A stretch of DNA of 22,999 nt. It comes from a virus. Each line of letters starts with the position of its first letter. The first letter of the stretch is position 1. A model generated the notes under the pieces. That model saw nothing but the letters and a program-made list of their open reading frames with translations. It did not search any database and was not told the origin of the DNA. Location: the IMG/VR virus record IMGVR_UViG_3300046003_004157, positions 1-22,999 of that record; one strand, written 5' to 3'. The position numbers were made by a program, and so were the translations under genes. This document shows positions 3,704 through 22,999 of the stretch, in pieces.

Positions 3704-5421
3704 CAGACAGTCTCCTGCGTGCGGGCGTCGGACTGCGCGTCATCGGCCGTTGCGGCGGCCTTGGATTCGACCTTGAAACCGCCGGGGACCACGACCGCCT
3801 CGAGGGCGCGCTCGCGGGCGATCTGCTTCAGTTCCTTGCGCCAGTCGCCGCCGTGGATCTTCGCGATGACGCGCTCGCGGGTCGTGAAGCCGCCGGCGTG
3901 CAGGCGGGCGTAGGCGTCGCCTTCCTTGAGCGGGTCGATCATGCCCTGGCCGGCGCCGATCCACTCGCACGCGCTGTAGGCGTCGGCGTTCAGGCCGTCG
4001 TAGAAGTTCGGGATGTTGCGGCGCTTCAGGCATTCCAGTTGGCCGTAGTTCACGGCCTCCTCGAGCCAGAGGCGGTAGACGAACGACGCCGTGGTGTCGG
4101 CGGCGATCTTCTTGCGCGACTGCATGAACTTCCACGTCTCGCCCATGGCGGCGCGGGCCGACGAGTAGTTCGTCTGGCTGTAGTCCTTGGAGAGCTGCTC
4201 GTAGGAAACGCCGAGCGCCGCCGCGATGTGGCGCAGCAGGGACTGCTCGAACTTGTCGCCCATCGGGCCGGTGTTGCCCGGCGTCTGCAGCTTCAGGCGC
4301 GTGCCGGGCATGAAGACCGGAACCTTGACGCCGTCGTGATAGAGGTTCTGCGAGCCGCCGGAATACTGGTCGATGTTGTTCAGGTAGGCGAGCAGGGCCT
4401 TCGACGCGTTGTCCAGGTTCTCGTCGCCGCCGTCGCCGCCCATCATGGTGAGGACTTCGGCGCTCGGTAGGTCGGACTCGATGGAGGCCGCGTAGGTCGC
4501 GGCGACCACGGCGCGCTGAAGTTCCACCTTCCGGTGGCCCTTCGTCATCTGCATTTCCATGAGCGCGGCGACCATGGAGCTGATGCCCCGCGTCTGGTCC
4601 GGGCGCATCTGCTCATAGATGTGCAGGATCATCTGCCGGCCCCACCGATTGCGGGGCGGGACACGCGTCCATTTCAGGCGATCGGTGTTCAGCGTCGGAG
4701 AGTAGACGTCCCCGGGGTGGGCGTTGCGGATGTGATAGCCGATCGGGGCACCCCAGCGATCGCGCTCGATGCCGCCGCGGATGTCCTTGTCCCACTGACG
4801 TTCCCACGGCGTCGACAGGCGGTCCGTGTCGATCATCTGAATCGCGGTACGGAACGGCCGGCCGTCGCGCGGCATCCATTCGGCGGAGGCGAGGATCTCG
4901 CCGCCGGCCGTGTAGACGCCCACGGCCAGGCGGACGAGGGCGGTCAGGGTCTTGGTGCGCTGCGCGTCGAACCAGTGGTTCGGGCTCTCGGCGGCGAGCG
5001 TGAACTTGGTCTCGACTTCTTCCTGGAACTCGCGTTCCCAGACCTCGTCGTCGGAGCCGAACAGCACCTTGGTTTCGGGCTTCGCGTTCAGCAGGAACAG
5101 CGAACCGACGATGTTGTCCTTGTGGATCGTCGCGCCGCCGCCGACGTATGCGTCGTTCCGCAGAATGTCGCGGCTGCGGGCGTCGAGGATGTCCTTCTCG
5201 GGCAGGATGTCGCCATCGGCCGAGTTCATCGGCGGCTGCCACAGGGCGAGCTGGTCGAACCGCTTCGCGCCTTCGTGCGCGCCGCCGGTCATTGCGTAAC
5301 CGGGCGTCCCCCCGACCGCGACCGCCGACACGGCCGAGGGGAGCCCTGCATCGGTCGTCGCCACAGAGGGGGGCGCTACGGAACCGAGCAGAGCGGCGAT
5401 GTCGGCGGGAACGGCCGTCAT
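3703..5421 (-). CDS. B: Portal protein, lambda gpB family
   Basis: A 572-residue portal protein forming the dodecameric vertex through which DNA is packaged and ejected. Family hallmarks include ARSRDILRNDAYVGGGATIHKDNIVG near residues 80-110 (quoted pieces are within one stretch), DTDRLSTPW near 200, HIYEQMRPDQTRGIS near 265-280, and SYEQLSKDYSQTNYSSARAA near 405-425. The last roughly 40 residues are charged and disordered-looking. Its ATG overlaps the gpW stop by one base and its stop overlaps the protease start by one base, placing it in a tightly coupled operon. Confidence 0.93.
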   Translation of the reverse strand: MTAVPADIAALLGSVAPPSVATTDAGLPSAVSAVAVGGTPGYAMTGGAHEGAKRFDQLALWQPPMNSADGDILPEKDILDARSRDILRNDAYVGGGATIHKDNIVGSLFLLNAKPETKVLFGSDDEVWEREFQEEVETKFTLAAESPNHWFDAQRTKTLTALVRLAVGVYTAGGEILASAEWMPRDGRPFRTAIQMIDTDRLSTPWERQWDKDIRGGIERDRWGAPIGYHIRNAHPGDVYSPTLNTDRLKWTRVPPRNRWGRQMILHIYEQMRPDQTRGISSMVAALMEMQMTKGHRKVELQRAVVAATYAASIESDLPSAEVLTMMGGDGGDENLDNASKALLAYLNNIDQYSGGSQNLYHDGVKVPVFMPGTRLKLQTPGNTGPMGDKFEQSLLRHIAAALGVSYEQLSKDYSQTNYSSARAAMGETWKFMQSRKKIAADTTASFVYRLWLEEAVNYGQLECLKRRNIPNFYDGLNADAYSACEWIGAGQGMIDPLKEGDAYARLHAGGFTTRERVIAKIHGGDWRKELKQIARERALEAVVVPGGFKVESKAAATADDAQSDARTQETV

Positions 5422-5654
5422 CAGAAGTTGAACAGCAGACGCAGAGGCTTGGAGACGCGGCTGGTGCCGGCGATCTCTGCCTTCAGGTCGTTGATGTAGC
5501 GGAGCAGATCCTTGACCGTGTTCGAGCGGTAGGTGACCTCATCGCCGTTGGCGTCGCGGACACGGACAATCGCCTTCCCCAGTTGCAGGGAATGCAGCGC
5601 GGCCTCGGCTTCGACCAGTCGTTCGGCGGCAGTCGCCAATAGCCTTCGCCCCAA
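5421..5654 (-). CDS. W: Head-tail joining protein gpW-like
   Basis: A protein of up to 77 residues resembling lambda gpW (68 residues), which is added to the filled head before the tail connector. Shared features are an N-terminal helix ending in EAALHSLQLGK, a beta hairpin VRVRDANGDEVTY, a second helix VKDLLRYINDL and a hydrophobic C terminus (LLFNF). The start is uncertain: the longest form uses TTG at 5654, which lacks a clear ribosome site, and another TTG at 5639 is possible. It is the first gene after a probable internal promoter in the terL-gpW gap. Confidence 0.82.
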   Translation of the reverse strand: MGRRLLATAAERLVEAEAALHSLQLGKAIVRVRDANGDEVTYRSNTVKDLLRYINDLKAEIAGTSRVSKPLRLLFNF

Positions 5655-5677
5655 GGGAGGAATGAAGGCTCACAAAT

Positions 5678-5731
5678 ACACGGAAACTGTGATGATAGTC
5701 AAGGAACGCTTGTTTTTCAAGACGTTCTTGA
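5678..5731. promoter_or_regulatory. Triple operator array between terL and gpW
   Basis: Three 15-bp sites of the TCAAG-N5-CTTGA type: 5717-5731 TCAAGACGTTCTTGA (perfect arms, extendable to an 8-bp palindrome TTTCAAGA/TCTTGAAA), 5699-5713 TCAAGGAACGCTTGT, and 5678-5692 ACACGGAAACTGTGA (weaker). Starts are 18 and 21 bp apart. They cover the -35, spacer and -10 of the internal promoter, so a bound repressor would block it. Confidence 0.55.
5692..5720 (-). promoter_or_regulatory. Internal late promoter upstream of gpW
   Basis: On the minus strand TTGAAA (5720-5715) and TATCAT (5697-5692) are separated by exactly 17 bases, a good sigma70-type promoter reading into gpW and the head genes. The -35 box lies inside one 15-bp operator-like palindrome, the spacer holds another, and the -10 abuts a third. 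Promoter activity is inferred. Confidence 0.6.
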
Positions 5732-5736
5732 AACTG

Positions 5737-7899
5737 TCAGGTCAACTTCGCCCCAAGCGCCGCGAACGAAAGCCCCGGGGCCTTCTTCACGGGACCCTCC
5801 GCTCCGCGCGGGTCGAAGACGAGGTCATTCCTCTCCCACGGCGCGGCCCATCCCGGACACCCGGCACCCATCCAGTCGATCCGGTCATAGCGGATGACCG
5901 CGAGCGGTGCTCGAGTCGACACGTCGTCCGGACGCAGGGCCATCCCAAGCGCATAGACGAGCAAGTCCCAGTCCTCGTTTCGGCGGTTGAACGGGTTCAC
6001 CCAGCCCTTCTCGGTGCGGATCTCGGTCGTGACCTGCGTGAAGAAGAAGTCCGGCGTCCACGCCGGGTAGCGGATCATTCCGCCGCCCACGTCTTCCTCG
6101 GCTTCGGCCACGCGCCGGCCGAGCATATTCGACACCTGGTCCTTCAACTGGTTCACGTTCAGCCGGACCACAGGCACGTCGCCGCGGGCGGTCGACATCT
6201 TGTCCCGCCGGTTGGAGTCCGGCCAGGTCACCACGGCGCGCGGCGCGTTCATCGAGCCGTCGCCCTTCAGCAGCAGGAACCTGCGATGCAGTCCAACCGG
6301 GAGGCCGTCGCCCTCGCGGGCATCCCGCAGCCGTCGCCAGAACGCATACGCCTGGTGCGTCACGCCCTCGCGGCCGCCTGAGTCGCAGCCGGTGGCCTTG
6401 ATCGACATCCGCCGGCCGCTGCCGTCGGCGAGCGGGTAGGATTTCTGCATGACCTCTTCGACCAGCATATCCCAGTCCTCGCCGTAGGAGGCAGGGTCGA
6501 GGGGGAGGGGATCATCGGCGCCGTCCAGTCGGCGGGACTTCCGGATCTTGAAGCCATCGACGCGCACCATGTCGCCGCCCTCGGCGAAGCCGACGATCAT
6601 CACGACGAACGCTCGCGCCTGAACGTCGATCACCGCCTCGAGGAACCGGACACCCTCGGGGACCAGCGGCTCGGCTGGCCGTCCGTCGTCGCGACCGTCT
6701 CCCCAGTCCTCGACCTTGGCCTTGAGGTCTTCGGGCAGGCGCTCAGAGACGCGCGCCTTCGGGGTGTAGGGGTCGCCCTGGTCGGTGTTGACGGTCTTCC
6801 GCAGCGGCTCCTCGTCGCCGGTCGCCTCGTAGGCGGCCACGGCGCGCAGGTTTTCCAGCACGATGCTCTGCCAGGTCTGGAAGCCGGCCGCCGGTCCCTT
6901 GAGCCAGAACGACGCGATGTCCGACCGCGCGGCCTTCATGCCCGGTCGCTCGACGATCTCGCCGCGCTCGGGCAGCCAGATCATGCCGTCCTTCACCCAG
7001 CGGCCGCCCAGGTTCATCTCCTCCTTCTGGCCGGGCTCCAACACGCAGCCGTTGTTCGGACAGACCAGCGTGACCTGCTCGGCGGCCTCCATGGGGTCGT
7101 CGCACTTCGGCCAGTGCAGCAGCTTGAACGATGGCTCGAACGCCTCGTGGCAATGCGGGCACTGCCAGTACCAGCGTCGGCGGTCGCCGCGGTTGTAGAG
7201 TTCGAGGATACCCTTCGTCGGCGGGGCTTCGTGGGGCGTCTTGGCGATCCACTTCGGGTTCTCGACCTCGCGGCCGGGCGAGGACTCGGCCACGGTCATA
7301 CCGAACCGCTTGAACGTCGTCGTCCGCTTCCGGCCCAGGTCGAACGCGTTGCCTTCGCCTTCGATGGAGTCCGGCATCCGGTCGTAGTCCATCAGCCAGA
7401 CGAAGCGGCGCGTCTTGCCGGACAGGTTTTTCACGGTCGGCCAGGTGATTTCCAGCCGCATCCCGTGGATGTATTCCTTGTCGAAAGTGTTGTCGTTTTG
7501 CCGGCCCGGGCGCAGCATCGCGCTGATTTCGGGGCTGTTGCGGTGGAACTTCTCGAGGTCGTCCTTCGACCATTCCCGCGCGGTGTGCTGCGCCATGTGG
7601 ACGAGCATCATGTCGGTCGGGTCGACCTTCACGGTGTGGGCGGTCCAGTTCAGGAACTTCTGGCTTTTGCCCGTCCGCGCCGGCCCGACGTCGATGACGG
7701 CGGTGTAGTCGAGGCTGGTATAGGTGTCCTGAATCTCGACGTTGTAGGGCGTCTTCTCAGGTGACCAGGGGCCGATGTGCGCGCCCGGCTGCCGGATGAT
7801 GACGTACTTCTGCGCCGCCTCGGTGACGCTCATGTAGTCGATCGGTCGGAGGCCATCGAACACCGACGCCGCCATTGTCTCCAAGGACTCGAACGGCAT
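5737..7899 (-). CDS. A: Terminase large subunit, GpA family
   Basis: A 720-residue packaging motor: an ATPase that translocates DNA into the prohead plus an endonuclease that cuts concatemers. Walker A is GPARTGKS at 72-79; the Walker B-like strand FVWLMDYD ends at Asp171-Asp173. A zinc-ribbon-like set follows: C247, C250 (CPHC) and C280, C285 (CPNNGC). The C-terminal nuclease half has the acidic strand EAVIDVQARAFVVMIVGF and TGCDSGG. Length and motif order fit the lambda GpA family. The start overlaps the stop of the small subunit gene by one base. Confidence 0.95.
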   Translation of the reverse strand: MPFESLETMAASVFDGLRPIDYMSVTEAAQKYVIIRQPGAHIGPWSPEKTPYNVEIQDTYTSLDYTAVIDVGPARTGKSQKFLNWTAHTVKVDPTDMMLVHMAQHTAREWSKDDLEKFHRNSPEISAMLRPGRQNDNTFDKEYIHGMRLEITWPTVKNLSGKTRRFVWLMDYDRMPDSIEGEGNAFDLGRKRTTTFKRFGMTVAESSPGREVENPKWIAKTPHEAPPTKGILELYNRGDRRRWYWQCPHCHEAFEPSFKLLHWPKCDDPMEAAEQVTLVCPNNGCVLEPGQKEEMNLGGRWVKDGMIWLPERGEIVERPGMKAARSDIASFWLKGPAAGFQTWQSIVLENLRAVAAYEATGDEEPLRKTVNTDQGDPYTPKARVSERLPEDLKAKVEDWGDGRDDGRPAEPLVPEGVRFLEAVIDVQARAFVVMIVGFAEGGDMVRVDGFKIRKSRRLDGADDPLPLDPASYGEDWDMLVEEVMQKSYPLADGSGRRMSIKATGCDSGGREGVTHQAYAFWRRLRDAREGDGLPVGLHRRFLLLKGDGSMNAPRAVVTWPDSNRRDKMSTARGDVPVVRLNVNQLKDQVSNMLGRRVAEAEEDVGGGMIRYPAWTPDFFFTQVTTEIRTEKGWVNPFNRRNEDWDLLVYALGMALRPDDVSTRAPLAVIRYDRIDWMGAGCPGWAAPWERNDLVFDPRGAEGPVKKAPGLSFAALGAKLT

Positions 7900-8930: not shown

Positions 8931-10112
8931 TCACCCCAACAGTCGCCCGATTTCCAACTGCCCGTCGAGGAAGTTCGACCACCAGTCCAGCATCCGCCGC
9001 CGGCCTTCCAGATATTCGGCGGCGTTGTAGGCGGAACGGACCTCGTCGTCGTCCGCGTGCGCGAGCTGGCGCTCAATCCAGTCCTGATGCCACAGGCCGG
9101 ACTCGTTGGCGTAGGTCGAGGCGGTGCCTCGCAGGCCGTGGACCGTGGCGCGTGATCGGTAACCCATCCGGTACATCGCATAGATCAGGGTGTTTTCTGA
9201 CATCGGACGACCGTTCAGGCCCGGGGCGAGCAGGGGCCCAGGCCCGGAGAGTTCCGACAGCCGGGTGACGATGGCCTGTGCCTGGGGCGACAGGGGAATC
9301 AGGTGGTCCCGGCTCATCTTCATCCGGGCGGCAGGAATGCGCCAAAGGTCGCCGTCGAACTCAGCCTTCTCGGCCAAGCGGATCTCCTTGGTCCGCGTCC
9401 AGGTTCGCAGGAGCAGTTCCATTGCGAGGCGGGTCGTCTCCTCGCCGTCGTATGTCTCAAGGCGCAGGAGGAACGCGGGCATCTCCGCGATCGGCAGCTT
9501 GGTGAAGTGTCGGCTTCGGATCGACGGCTTCAGCGCGGGGGCCAGATGGGCTGTCGGGTCATGTTCGGCGCGGCCGGTGGCGATGGCGTATTTGAAGACC
9601 GCGCTCACAGACTGCTTGATCCGCTTCGCCATCTCGATTGCGCCGCGGCCCTCGACCTTCCGCAGCATTGTCAGGATCTCGGTCGGCTTGATCTGGCGAA
9701 TCATCAGGCCGCCAATCTCCGGCAGCACGTCGTCCTCGAGCCGGGACCAGACGCGGGCGGAATAGGCAGGGACGATGCCGGTCTCATAGACGGCGAACCA
9801 CTCCTTCGCGATGACCCGGAAACTGTCCGCGGGGTCGCCCGGCCCCAGGTGGAGACGCTTGGCTGCTGACGGGTCGACGCCGGCGGCCAGGTGGCGCTTT
9901 GCCTCGGCGCGGTGATCGCGTGCCTCCGCCAGTTTGACGGCGGGAAACTGGCCGATCGCCAAGGTCTTCTGCTTGCCGCCGAACGCGTAGTTCATGCGCC
10001 ACAGTCGCGAGCCAGTCGTGCTGACGAGCAGATAAAGCCCCTCACCGTCGGCCAGTTTGTAGGGTTTCGCCTTCGCCTTCGCATTTCGGACGGCAGCGTC
10101 ACTGAGAGGCAT
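8931..10112 (-). CDS. int: Tyrosine integrase, P4 type with DUF4102 arm domain
   Basis: A 393-residue site-specific recombinase. Residues about 1-90 form the P4-integrase N-terminal arm-binding domain (LSDAAVRNAKAKAKPYKLAD, LYLLVSTTGSRLWR); about 95-190 is the core-binding SAM-like domain; the catalytic domain follows. Catalytic residues are Arg240 (TRTKEI), Lys265, His325 and Arg328 (HGLRGT), His352 (LAH) and the nucleophile Tyr367 (AAEYLEGRRR). All are present, so it should be active. The ATG at 10112 lies just downstream of GATACC repeats that may be its own binding sites. Phage genes lie on both sides, so this is not an obvious prophage end. Confidence 0.95.
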   Translation of the reverse strand: MPLSDAAVRNAKAKAKPYKLADGEGLYLLVSTTGSRLWRMNYAFGGKQKTLAIGQFPAVKLAEARDHRAEAKRHLAAGVDPSAAKRLHLGPGDPADSFRVIAKEWFAVYETGIVPAYSARVWSRLEDDVLPEIGGLMIRQIKPTEILTMLRKVEGRGAIEMAKRIKQSVSAVFKYAIATGRAEHDPTAHLAPALKPSIRSRHFTKLPIAEMPAFLLRLETYDGEETTRLAMELLLRTWTRTKEIRLAEKAEFDGDLWRIPAARMKMSRDHLIPLSPQAQAIVTRLSELSGPGPLLAPGLNGRPMSENTLIYAMYRMGYRSRATVHGLRGTASTYANESGLWHQDWIERQLAHADDDEVRSAYNAAEYLEGRRRMLDWWSNFLDGQLEIGRLLG

Positions 10113-10403
10113 CGACTATGGTATCCAAATTTCGATACCATGAATAATACCATGGTCAGACAGGAAGCAAGGGGAACTGCCGGGAACAACCGGGAGCACC
10201 AAATCCCGCCAACGCGGCCTTTGCGGGACATCATGGGCATATCGGAGAAGAACCGGAGTAGGCGCGGAGGCTCCTTGTGACCTTTGAAATCGTTGAGTTT
10301 TATTCCAACGATACCACGATGGATACCAACATTGAACAGGAAGTAGCGGGCTTTTTGGGGAACAATAGGGTACGATGCGACCCTACGTTTTGGAGGTCCC
10401 CTG
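10113..10403. promoter_or_regulatory. att-like repeat region between int and moron
   Basis: A 291-bp gap between two divergent genes. Next to int there is an inverted repeat ATGGTATC (10118-10125) / GATACCAT (10134-10141), then a second ATACCATG (10147-10154) within the palindrome ACCATGGT (10149-10156). About 175 bp away GATACCA recurs at 10310-10316 and 10322-10328. In both clusters the direct copies are 12 bp apart. This fits integrase arm-type sites flanking an attP core and/or int autoregulation. I could not identify the core: no tRNA fragment is convincing. The promoter for the plus-strand gene must also lie here. Confidence 0.45.
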
Positions 10404-10868
10404 ATGCTCGTCACTGCGTTTGCCGCCCTTCTCATTGGCCCCGGGTCATGGCTCATCACCGACGAACGCTCCGCACTCGACGGCGTCCGCTCCTACATGG
10501 CCGGCGTCGAGTCGAGCGAACCGCTGCGAAACACGGCGGGCTTGCCTGAGACTGCGCTGCTGTCGCTGAACTGCGTGAACGGTCGCCGGACCGTCGGCAT
10601 CATCTGGCCGGCATACCTCGGCACGGATGATGCCCGCGTGCGGTGGAAGTTCGACGGCGGAGAGATCCAGCAGCGATCGCTCGGGGTCCTCCGCGGCGGA
10701 AAATCGGTGGTCTTCGGCGGCCGGGATGCCGAGCGGTTCCTCGACCAGGTCGCGGGCGCGCAGACCCTGGTGGTCGAGGTGACCGGCTACAGCGGCCAGC
10801 AGGAGGCCACCTTCAGCGTGGCCGGCGGGGGCGAAGTCGCCGCGGCGGTGCGGTCAGCCTGCCCCTAG
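10404..10868 (+). CDS. Exported TagO/VasI-like protein (probable moron)
   Basis: One of only two plus-strand genes, 154 residues. Residues 1-15 are hydrophobic (MLVTAFAALLIGPGS) like a signal peptide, and two cysteines (57 and 153) could form a periplasmic disulphide. The body alternates short strands: LLSLNCVNG, VGIIWP, RVRWKFDGG, SVVFGG, then FLDQVAGAQTLVVEVTGY and ATFSVAGG. This order resembles proteins related to the type VI accessory TagO/VasI; I judge this by pattern only. GGAGG sits seven bases before the ATG. It converges on and overlaps the 3' end of the SLOG gene by 15 bp. Its orientation against the operons suggests a gene expressed in the lysogen. Confidence 0.7.
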   Translation: MLVTAFAALLIGPGSWLITDERSALDGVRSYMAGVESSEPLRNTAGLPETALLSLNCVNGRRTVGIIWPAYLGTDDARVRWKFDGGEIQQRSLGVLRGGKSVVFGGRDAERFLDQVAGAQTLVVEVTGYSGQQEATFSVAGGGEVAAAVRSACP

Positions 10869-13458: not shown

Positions 13459-13486
13459 ACCCTATCACGGTTTCCGAGCATTTCAA
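13459..13486 (-). promoter_or_regulatory. Probable promoter of the dcm-SLOG operon
   Basis: On the minus strand TTGAAA (13486-13481), 16 bases, TAGGGT (13464-13459), in the 65-bp gap between the HTH gene and dcm. As at the terL-gpW promoter, the TTGAAA is formed by the CTTGA arm of an operator site. The -10 is a weak match. Confidence 0.4.
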
Positions 13487-13497
13487 GGGAAACGTGA
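13465..13497. promoter_or_regulatory. Operator pair upstream of dcm
   Basis: Two 15-bp sites with starts 18 bp apart: TCAAGGGAAACGTGA (13483-13497) and the weaker TCACGGTTTCCGAGC (13465-13479). The first is the reverse complement, with one mismatch, of a site at 22636-22650 upstream of the early region. They overlap the probable dcm promoter, so methyltransferase expression is probably controlled by the phage repressor. Confidence 0.55.
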
Positions 13498-13500
13498 CGA

Positions 13501-14310
13501 TCAGAGTCGTTTGGCGAACGTCTCCACCCGGCGCCAAGCGTGACTCTCGGTGCGATAATCTGCGTCGATTGTCACGCTGATCGCCGACTTTCCGGGCTTC
13601 CCGTGCTCGGCGAGGCCCTCGCTATCCAGCTCGACGATGTCGAAGCAGAGGGGCGAGGTCTGAATCACGCCCAGGACGATCGTGTTGCCGCCCATGGAAA
13701 CCGGCAGCGAGAACCGGGTCCCTTGGTCAGTTTGTTCCCCGAGCGCGACGTGGATCGCGTACTGAGCGCCGCGGATGATGGCGAACAGATCGACGTGTTC
13801 GCTCTCAGCCTTCACGTCTCCATCTTCCGGGAACGCAGGGCTCCCGCCGTGCAGTTGGATGAGGCCAGCAACGACGTTCACAGCACCGCTGGCCCGACCG
13901 TTGCGGATTGCGTTTCGGCTGGTTTCAGCCACGGCTGACTTGCCCAGCGAAAGCCAGGCCACGTCGACCTGAAGGATCTCGGCGAGGGTGTCCATGCGCT
14001 CCGCCCGAGGCTTGTTCTCGCCGGCGAAATACTTTCGCACCATCTCCTTGCTGACGACCATGTTGCGCTTGGCGAACTCCTCAGCGAACCAGCCAAGTCG
14101 CCCGTAGTTGGACGGCGGGACGGTCGCGTTGGTGTTGGCCACGGCATTCAACCTGGCCGCAAACTCCGGATGGAGGATTTGCGTGCCGGCGCTCCTCGGA
14201 GACTCGCTAATGGTCGGCATGAAAGATCGCCCTTCTGGCGGGGCAGACTGGAACCCGCCCTCGCACCCCGCACCATCGAAGGATTCACGGTCGTCGGCAA
14301 GTTGAAACAC
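13501..14310 (-). CDS. HTH transcription regulator, probable phage repressor
   Basis: A protein of 269 residues from GTG at 14310, chosen because AGAAGGAG stands seven bases before it; an ATG at 14220 (239 residues) is also possible. After a variable N terminus comes a Cro/CI-type HTH region (WFAEEFAKRNMVVSKEMVRKY, then GENKPRAERMDTLAEIL and VDVAWLSLG). The C-terminal half is a beta-rich domain that I do not recognise. It lacks the Ser-Lys peptidase motifs of LexA/CI-type S24 repressors, so induction would not be by RecA-stimulated self-cleavage. It has operator pairs on both sides, supporting autoregulation. It reads in the same direction as the early genes, unlike the usual divergent cI layout. 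Confidence 0.7.
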   Translation of the reverse strand: MFQLADDRESFDGAGCEGGFQSAPPEGRSFMPTISESPRSAGTQILHPEFAARLNAVANTNATVPPSNYGRLGWFAEEFAKRNMVVSKEMVRKYFAGENKPRAERMDTLAEILQVDVAWLSLGKSAVAETSRNAIRNGRASGAVNVVAGLIQLHGGSPAFPEDGDVKAESEHVDLFAIIRGAQYAIHVALGEQTDQGTRFSLPVSMGGNTIVLGVIQTSPLCFDIVELDSEGLAEHGKPGKSAISVTIDADYRTESHAWRRVETFAKRL

Positions 14311-14364: not shown

Positions 14365-14397
14365 TCATGTCTTCCTTGAAAATCTAGGGAAACTTGA
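14365..14397. promoter_or_regulatory. Operator pair upstream of the HTH regulator
   Basis: TCATGTCTTCCTTGA (14365-14379) and TCTAGGGAAACTTGA (14383-14397), both TC.AG-N5-CTTGA class palindromes with starts 18 bp apart, in the 165-bp gap between the VRR-NUC gene and the regulator. They probably mediate autoregulation. I could not settle the promoter boxes here. A small hairpin GCGGGA/TCCCGC lies just downstream at 14345-14360. Confidence 0.5.
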
Positions 14398-22589: not shown

Positions 22590-22618
22590 AGAGAACCACC
22601 AACGCCGGAAACTTTCAA
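22590..22618 (-). promoter_or_regulatory. Possible leftward early promoter
   Basis: On the minus strand TTGAAA (22618-22613), 17 bases and TTCTCT (22595-22590) stand upstream of the Ala-rich gene. The -35 again comes from an operator arm, as at the other two phage promoters, but the -10 is poor, so this is tentative. Confidence 0.3.
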
Positions 22619-22650
22619 GGGGTCCGGGAAAATAATCACGGTTCCCTTGA
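22615..22650. promoter_or_regulatory. Operator pair at the early divergent region
   Basis: TCACGGTTCCCTTGA (22636-22650) is the reverse complement, with one mismatch, of the dcm operator TCAAGGGAAACGTGA. A weaker site TCAAGGGGTCCGGGA lies at 22615-22629; starts are 21 bp apart, a spacing also seen in the terL-gpW array. They lie between the leftward early genes and the rightward partial gene and could control both. Confidence 0.55.
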
Positions 22651-22708: not shown

Positions 22709-22999
22709 ATGACGAACGCCGCAGCCGGTCGACCCTCGGAAACACAGCACTCCACGGCAGGCCGCCCTGCGAAGGACGGCCGCAAATACTACGAGGGTAA
22801 GCTGTATCCCCTGCTCGCCGACCGCCTTCCTCACCATGTCAACGCCAGCGGTCGTCTGGACGTCGCCAGCCTCGCCGATGCCCTCGCTGTGAGCGGCCAG
22901 ACGCTCTATTTCAGCATGGCGGAGGACCGGCTCACGCCGCGGATCGCCAAGCTGATCGTCGGCGAGTCGCGAGACAAGCTGTCGCCCCAGGATCTCGCA
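22709..22999 (+). CDS. Partial plus-strand gene, possible small DNA-binding protein
   Basis: Ninety-seven codons to the window edge, no stop. AAGGA stands seven bases before the ATG. The N terminus has two GRP motifs separated by ten residues and a basic DGRK, reminiscent of AT-hook-like minor-groove contacts. Then follow YYEGKLYPLLADRL and LDVASLADALAVSGQTLYF, the latter compatible with a helix-turn-helix. It is divergent from the early region across an operator pair, where a cro-like or antirepressor gene would be expected. I do not recognise the family. Confidence 0.65.
   Translation, partial: MTNAAAGRPSETQHSTAGRPAKDGRKYYEGKLYPLLADRLPHHVNASGRLDVASLADALAVSGQTLYFSMAEDRLTPRIAKLIVGESRDKLSPQDLA

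Follow-up and report, generated by a model that had tools for sequence, protein, structure and literature searches.

In phage lambda, an HTH repressor binds the tandem palindromic operators OR and OL, which lie over a promoter. These operators occur only at the early/immunity region, and the late genes are driven by one antiterminated promoter. In Cluster A mycobacteriophages such as L5, one repressor has more than 20 sites across the genome, which lie at promoters or in the short spaces between genes (PMC9283540), and up to about 30 operator/stoperator sites are known in this group (PMC6550527). The c1 repressor of phage P1 has 22 operators dispersed over the genome (PMC8546580), and the SPbeta master repressor MrpR recognises SPBRE, a 15-bp repeated intergenic element (PMC10516654).

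The DNA analysed here (the window) is the whole of IMG/VR record IMGVR_UViG_3300046003_004157, a linear sequence of 22999 bases. Its TerL, gpW, portal and the order repressor-integrase-TerS-TerL are those of a Casjensviridae-type temperate phage, and on these genes we identify it as a fragment of such a siphophage. The minus strand holds the packaging genes (AlpA-like, TerS, TerL, gpW, portal, protease and capsid) and most replication genes. TerL identity is 62% to one IMG/VR relative and about 49-54% to RcRios (Rhodobacter), RHph_X2_30 (Rhizobium) and pCB2051-A (Loktanella), which are Casjensviridae by the classification in their own records. Gene order around the repressor, terminase and gpW is the same in AH2, the RcD-cluster Rhodobacter phages and RHph_X2_30. 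A scan of genome contigs for relatives gave only distant ones, enteric and other. A lone plus-strand gene of PHROG 1848 (unknown function, 10404-10868) lies beside the integrase gene among minus-strand genes, and multiple GGTATC/GATACC inverted repeats at 10108-10328, also adjoining the integrase gene, are possibly integrase arm sites or attP. The genes bordering the gap under study are as follows.

5737..7899, minus strand: terL, GpA-type terminase large subunit, upstream of the gap (Pfam GpA_ATPase 2e-65, GpA_nuclease 1e-54)
5640..5736, minus strand: terL-gpW gap (97 bp if gpW starts at TTG 5639, 82 bp if at TTG 5654)
5421..5639, minus strand: gpW head-tail joining protein, the ORF reaching TTG 5654 (Pfam gpW 9e-11; PHROG head-tail adaptor Ad1)

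The length of the gap is 82 or 97 bp because gpW may start at TTG 5654 or at TTG 5639 behind GGGGCGAAGG; the gene finder supports 5639, which is the more likely start. In two relatives (L005 and L006), tblastn places gpW not beside terL but about 2 kb further downstream, with other sequence intervening. An earlier note on this DNA had described the gap as the only sizeable one in the packaging block and as the place of the best promoter match of the window, and both descriptions hold: the next largest gap, which follows the capsid gene, has 61 bp, and TTGAAA-N17-TATCAT (minus strand, 5720-5692, 10/12) is the sole site scoring at least 9/12 in the whole window. The elements of the gap, in the direction of transcription, are listed below.

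5717..5731, minus strand: candidate operator O1, TCAAGAACGTCTTGA, a perfect palindrome overlapping the -35 (member of the de novo motif)
5715..5720, minus strand: -35-like TTGAAA (consensus match)
5699..5713, minus strand: candidate operator O2, ACAAGCGTTCCTTGA, a perfect palindrome within the promoter spacer, 18 bp from O1 (member of the de novo motif)
5692..5697, minus strand: -10-like TATCAT (consensus match; shuffle P = 0.007)
5678..5692, minus strand: O3, TCACAGTTTCCGTGT, a weaker operator-like site at the -10/start region (rank 14 of 22985 with the leave-gap-out motif)
5641..5670, minus strand: RNA hairpin AGCCTTC...GAAGGCT, base-paired with the likely ribosome-binding site of gpW (z = -2.8 for the fold of 5600-5750)

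O1 and O2 are 15-bp palindromes of the TCAAGN5CTTGA type with centres 18 bp apart, and their perfect CAAGN5CTTG cores (5700-5712 and 5718-5730) form a pair that is far from chance. Allowing at most one mismatch, CAAGN5CTTG, a motif with few sites that was first noticed from the gap itself, has 19 matches in the window against 6.25 expected, and no shuffle reached 19. When the motif was trained on four window sites outside the gap, the gap sites ranked 5, 12 and 14 of 22985, and with a motif built from the non-gap sites of other phages alone, O1 was the top match in the window. O3 was absent from the de novo palindrome set of the window. Of the three operator-like sites that the earlier note had placed over the promoter, two are therefore perfect palindromes and the third is weaker. 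No close DNA relative was found for the gap itself. A LexA-like GTTCN7GTTC reading, made by eye only, was rejected, its spacing being one off. The stable hairpin and the likely TTG start make translational control of gpW possible.

The same type of site recurs at other regulatory gaps of the window, namely within the early divergent region, ahead of the repressor gene and in the gap between repressor and methyltransferase.

22636..22650, minus strand: candidate operator TCAAGGGAACCGTGA, early divergent region (motif scan; de novo set)
22615..22629, minus strand: probable partner operator TCCCGGACCCCTTGA, 21 bp from TCAAGGGAACCGTGA (leave-gap-out scan; de novo set)
14383..14397, minus strand: candidate operator TCAAGTTTCCCTAGA, upstream of the repressor (motif scan; de novo set)
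14365..14379, minus strand: candidate operator TCAAGGAAGACATGA, upstream of the repressor, 18 bp from its partner TCAAGTTTCCCTAGA (motif scan; de novo set)
13501..14220, minus strand: HTH_3 repressor (Pfam HTH_3 4e-05), homologue of AH2 gp70 'repressor' and of the RcD-cluster immunity repressors
13483..13497, minus strand: candidate operator TCACGTTTCCCTTGA, repressor-methyltransferase gap, its TTGA starting a TTGAAA (motif match; de novo set)
13465..13479, minus strand: probable partner operator GCTCGGAAACCGTGA, 18 bp from TCACGTTTCCCTTGA (rank 9, leave-gap-out scan)

The de novo set of the window (TCAAGN5CTTGA) has 8 sites, one of them doubtful, and within this 23-kb fragment sites are found at four gaps only. 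Because the sites are so few, the split-half test for the window was not significant, one half recovering 0 of the sites of the other.

The structure model places an HTH domain at the N-terminus of the repressor, which in its N-terminal HTH_3 domain resembles CI-like phage repressors. Pfam gives HTH_3 only and no S24 peptidase domain was found at the C-terminus, where LexA/CI-type self-cleaving repressors carry one; the best PDB matches to the C-terminal fold are weak and are to nuclease folds of the PD-(D/E)XK type, among them an Hjc-like Holliday-junction resolvase (E about 2e-3). A search of solved structures with the repressor sequence gave no match. Since the predicted C-terminal domain is not S24-like, induction of this phage may proceed without self-cleavage of the repressor. 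Phages of the RcD cluster form apparent lysogens that are immune to superinfection (PMC8601537).

Relatives were then compared after they had been oriented, their genes called with a small home-made codon-usage gene finder and their non-coding DNA searched de novo for 15-bp palindromes, with a laxer seed for RcRios, G005 and the phages without repressor. Together with the window, 11 repressor-bearing relatives have 7-22 dispersed palindromes per genome or part genome, mainly intergenic, the sites being picked within non-coding DNA as defined by that gene finder; shuffled non-coding DNA gave near zero. The counts, some of them from part genomes, are 19 in G002, 11 in G003, 22 in G006, 18 in RHph_X2_30, 7 in AH2, 20 in PS6, 10 in N133, 17 in DSS3-P1, 11 in SS2019XI, 20 in AchV4 and 19 in RcRios (TCACATCWGATGTGA). 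At the same threshold, matches over whole sequences are mostly non-coding (for example 19/24 and 22/25), and non-coding DNA makes up 11-19%. For the larger sets, split-half hold-outs also land in non-coding DNA (p 1e-4 to 1e-8). The consensus is phage-specific, with half-sites such as TCAAC, TCAAG and TCACA, and one palindrome family is common to phages of Klebsiella, Marinobacter, Achromobacter and Rhizobium. By eye, the recognition helix of the repressor varies with the half-site, SHEAVRKWFAG accompanying TCAAC and TSETVRKWNNG accompanying TCACA. Nine further loci were fetched by their repressors; five have a TCA-type set of their own and three others gave nothing above noise. Twelve relatives by TerL, mostly of lambda type, gave nothing or A/T-rich words.

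A single palindrome frame for all phages was tried and abandoned, as it fails for G001 and G005. In G001, whose repressor is diverged, a different word, TGTCCCATTTAA, is dispersed, with 13/14 near copies non-coding, an exact copy in the terL-gpW gap, and occurrences at L098 4017 and further sites. In G005 the de novo searches found no palindrome and only a hint of a repeated word.

No comparable set was found in Chi, JS26 and Loktanella pCB2051-A, which have no such repressor and gave 5-9 sites of other kinds. Four things can be read directly from sequence: the window has the sites, they recur at its repressor gene and in its early region, relatives have counterparts of them, and these three phages lack them. 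Because of this recurrence, because the motif changes from phage to phage and because the three repressor-less relatives are without such a set, the gap sites have the appearance of operators for the HTH repressor that the phage itself encodes. Another phage DNA-binding protein, either the AlpA-like one or the Cro-like one encoded next to the primase, could bind them instead: pCB2051-A (L069, L126) has five palindromes GCAATANNNTATTGC, one of them close to the early divergent region, and the window encodes, at 22709+, a distant homologue of the RcRios HTH protein. The TCAxx arrays, however, are found in the repressor-bearing phages and not in the three without repressor, and we regard a second protein as improbable.

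The palindromes adjoin the terminase genes, as a packaging (cos/pac) site might, and a site for a host regulator was considered together with this reading. Sites that also flank the repressor and early genes argue against both. The ends of RcD-cluster phages are cos ends with 12-base overhangs (PMC8601537), and the RcRios record ends about 24 kb away from the gap; from such record ends a packaging site was rejected for the Rhodobacter phages. A host factor does not fit, because the words differ between phages and one family spans phages of several hosts. Taken as one explanation, a packaging or host site is very unlikely.

We next asked how the terL-gpW gap fares in relatives. When motifs were retrained without gap sites in ten phages, nine gaps reached P <= 0.016 against dinucleotide-shuffled gaps, and that of Klebsiella phage N133 only P = 0.05. 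Over the whole test the Fisher value is 2e-17, but its independence is limited by kinship among the phages and by our own choice of site sets. By inspection, RcCWillis and L093 also have sites in the gap. In AchV4, DSS3-P1 and G002, which have the repressor, the gap is very short and no site was found in it. Aligned across relatives, the gap does not vary freely, in line with the regulatory role proposed by the earlier note: in RcRios, RcCWillis and the IMG locus L093, a block of operator plus TATCTAT, GAACGTGTATCTAT, is near-invariant while the flanking columns diverge, and an operator joined to a -10 box fits this conservation.

The earlier note had proposed a simple repressor-controlled late promoter for the head genes, with no wider array. 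The overlapping operators and the promoter match do stand where such a switch would need them, but the same sites occur at further gaps of the window, and in relatives they are dispersed, some lying upstream of the capsid, decoration, tail-tube and lysis genes. The idea of a single special switch separating head genes from terminase thus does not hold, since the gap site is one of many, and we give the simple late promoter hardly any weight. Judged from these comparisons, the gap is one recurrent position of an operator array. Of the proposed control by the lysogeny repressor, the repressor-type sites are borne out by sequence and the lone-switch role is not.

Promoter consensus alone was rejected as evidence, as the number of matches in the window is at chance level (1 found against about 1.2-1.3 expected per half window) and the gaps of most relatives do not outscore their shuffles; the window and AH2 belong to a promoter-bearing minority. 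A 10/12 match within the terL-gpW gap specifically has a shuffle P of 0.007, which makes a sigma70 promoter plausible there. Among 150 within-operon sites, 20 have a sigma70-like promoter of at least 9/12, where 6.3 would be expected. For 48 of the 150, the next start codon is within 25 bp, which leaves no room for a promoter that begins in the operator. These two fractions make it likely that some sites are promoter operators and others roadblocks. A pure, stoperator-like roadblock, in which the repressor does no more than halt polymerase arriving from upstream and the promoter match is a by-product of the TTGA at the operator's end, would accord with the many sites close to start codons, with the majority of within-operon sites that have no such promoter and with the relatives' poor scores. 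It sits badly with the score in the window gap, the enrichment of promoters at operators overall and the TATCTAT conserved beside the operator in the Rhodobacter clade, and we consider it unlikely.

We therefore favour the mixed array, and find it fairly probable that the gap is an operator station of the lysogeny repressor, one of a genome-wide palindromic set typical of temperate Casjensviridae, which silences the head genes. Close pairs of sites favour a centre spacing of 18-20 bp (11 of the 25 pairs less than 70 bp apart), which suggests that dimers bind on the same side of the DNA. In the lysogenic state, O1 and O2, separated by about two turns of the helix, and possibly also O3 would be occupied by repressor dimers; these would cover a sigma70-type promoter and block polymerase arriving from terL, so that gpW and the portal, protease and capsid genes would be off. 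Induction would free the sites, and the local promoter would then contribute to head-gene transcription. Repressor binding, cooperative pairing, promoter activity and roadblocking are the parts of this explanation that we infer. The array probably keeps even virion genes silent in the lysogen, which would change the view, taken from lambda, that in such phages these genes are shut off by indirect means only. Some Casjensviridae have been put forward for therapy, and several carry a repressor; a readable operator array would reveal which of them are temperate and predict immunity groups from sequence, and it would offer a Gram-negative system for testing repressor roadblocking inside operons.

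A search of the open-access literature, subscription papers being outside its reach, did not find dispersed operators described in Casjensviridae, and the accessible parts of the AH2 and RcD papers mention no operator array, although AH2, the RcD-cluster phages and RHph_X2_30 have a homologous repressor. As in lambda OR/OL, tandem palindromic operators lie over a promoter match and the repressor is an HTH protein; unlike the lambda operators, the sites are not confined to the early/immunity region but reach the terL-gpW gap and, in relatives, are dispersed. With SPbeta the system shares 15-bp intergenic sites, although MrpR is of the tyrosine-recombinase type and its sites, upstream of genes, are described as promoter regions, unlike those here. 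With P1 c1 it shares many dispersed sites, those of P1 being 17-bp and asymmetric. As with the Cluster A stoperators, sites in the relatives are many, dispersed and mainly intergenic, within-operon ones included, and the motifs of related phages differ along with the repressor. In Cluster A, however, each site is an asymmetric 13-bp sequence that points in the direction of transcription, and the repressor is a monomeric two-domain protein, whereas the sites here are 15-bp palindromes in a different phage family. We tentatively propose, as an idea with somewhat less than even prospects, that Casjensviridae prophages are silenced by a genome-wide palindromic array whose sites work at promoters and, within early and late operons, also halt elongation; such a system would resemble the stoperators but have evolved independently of the mycobacteriophage one.
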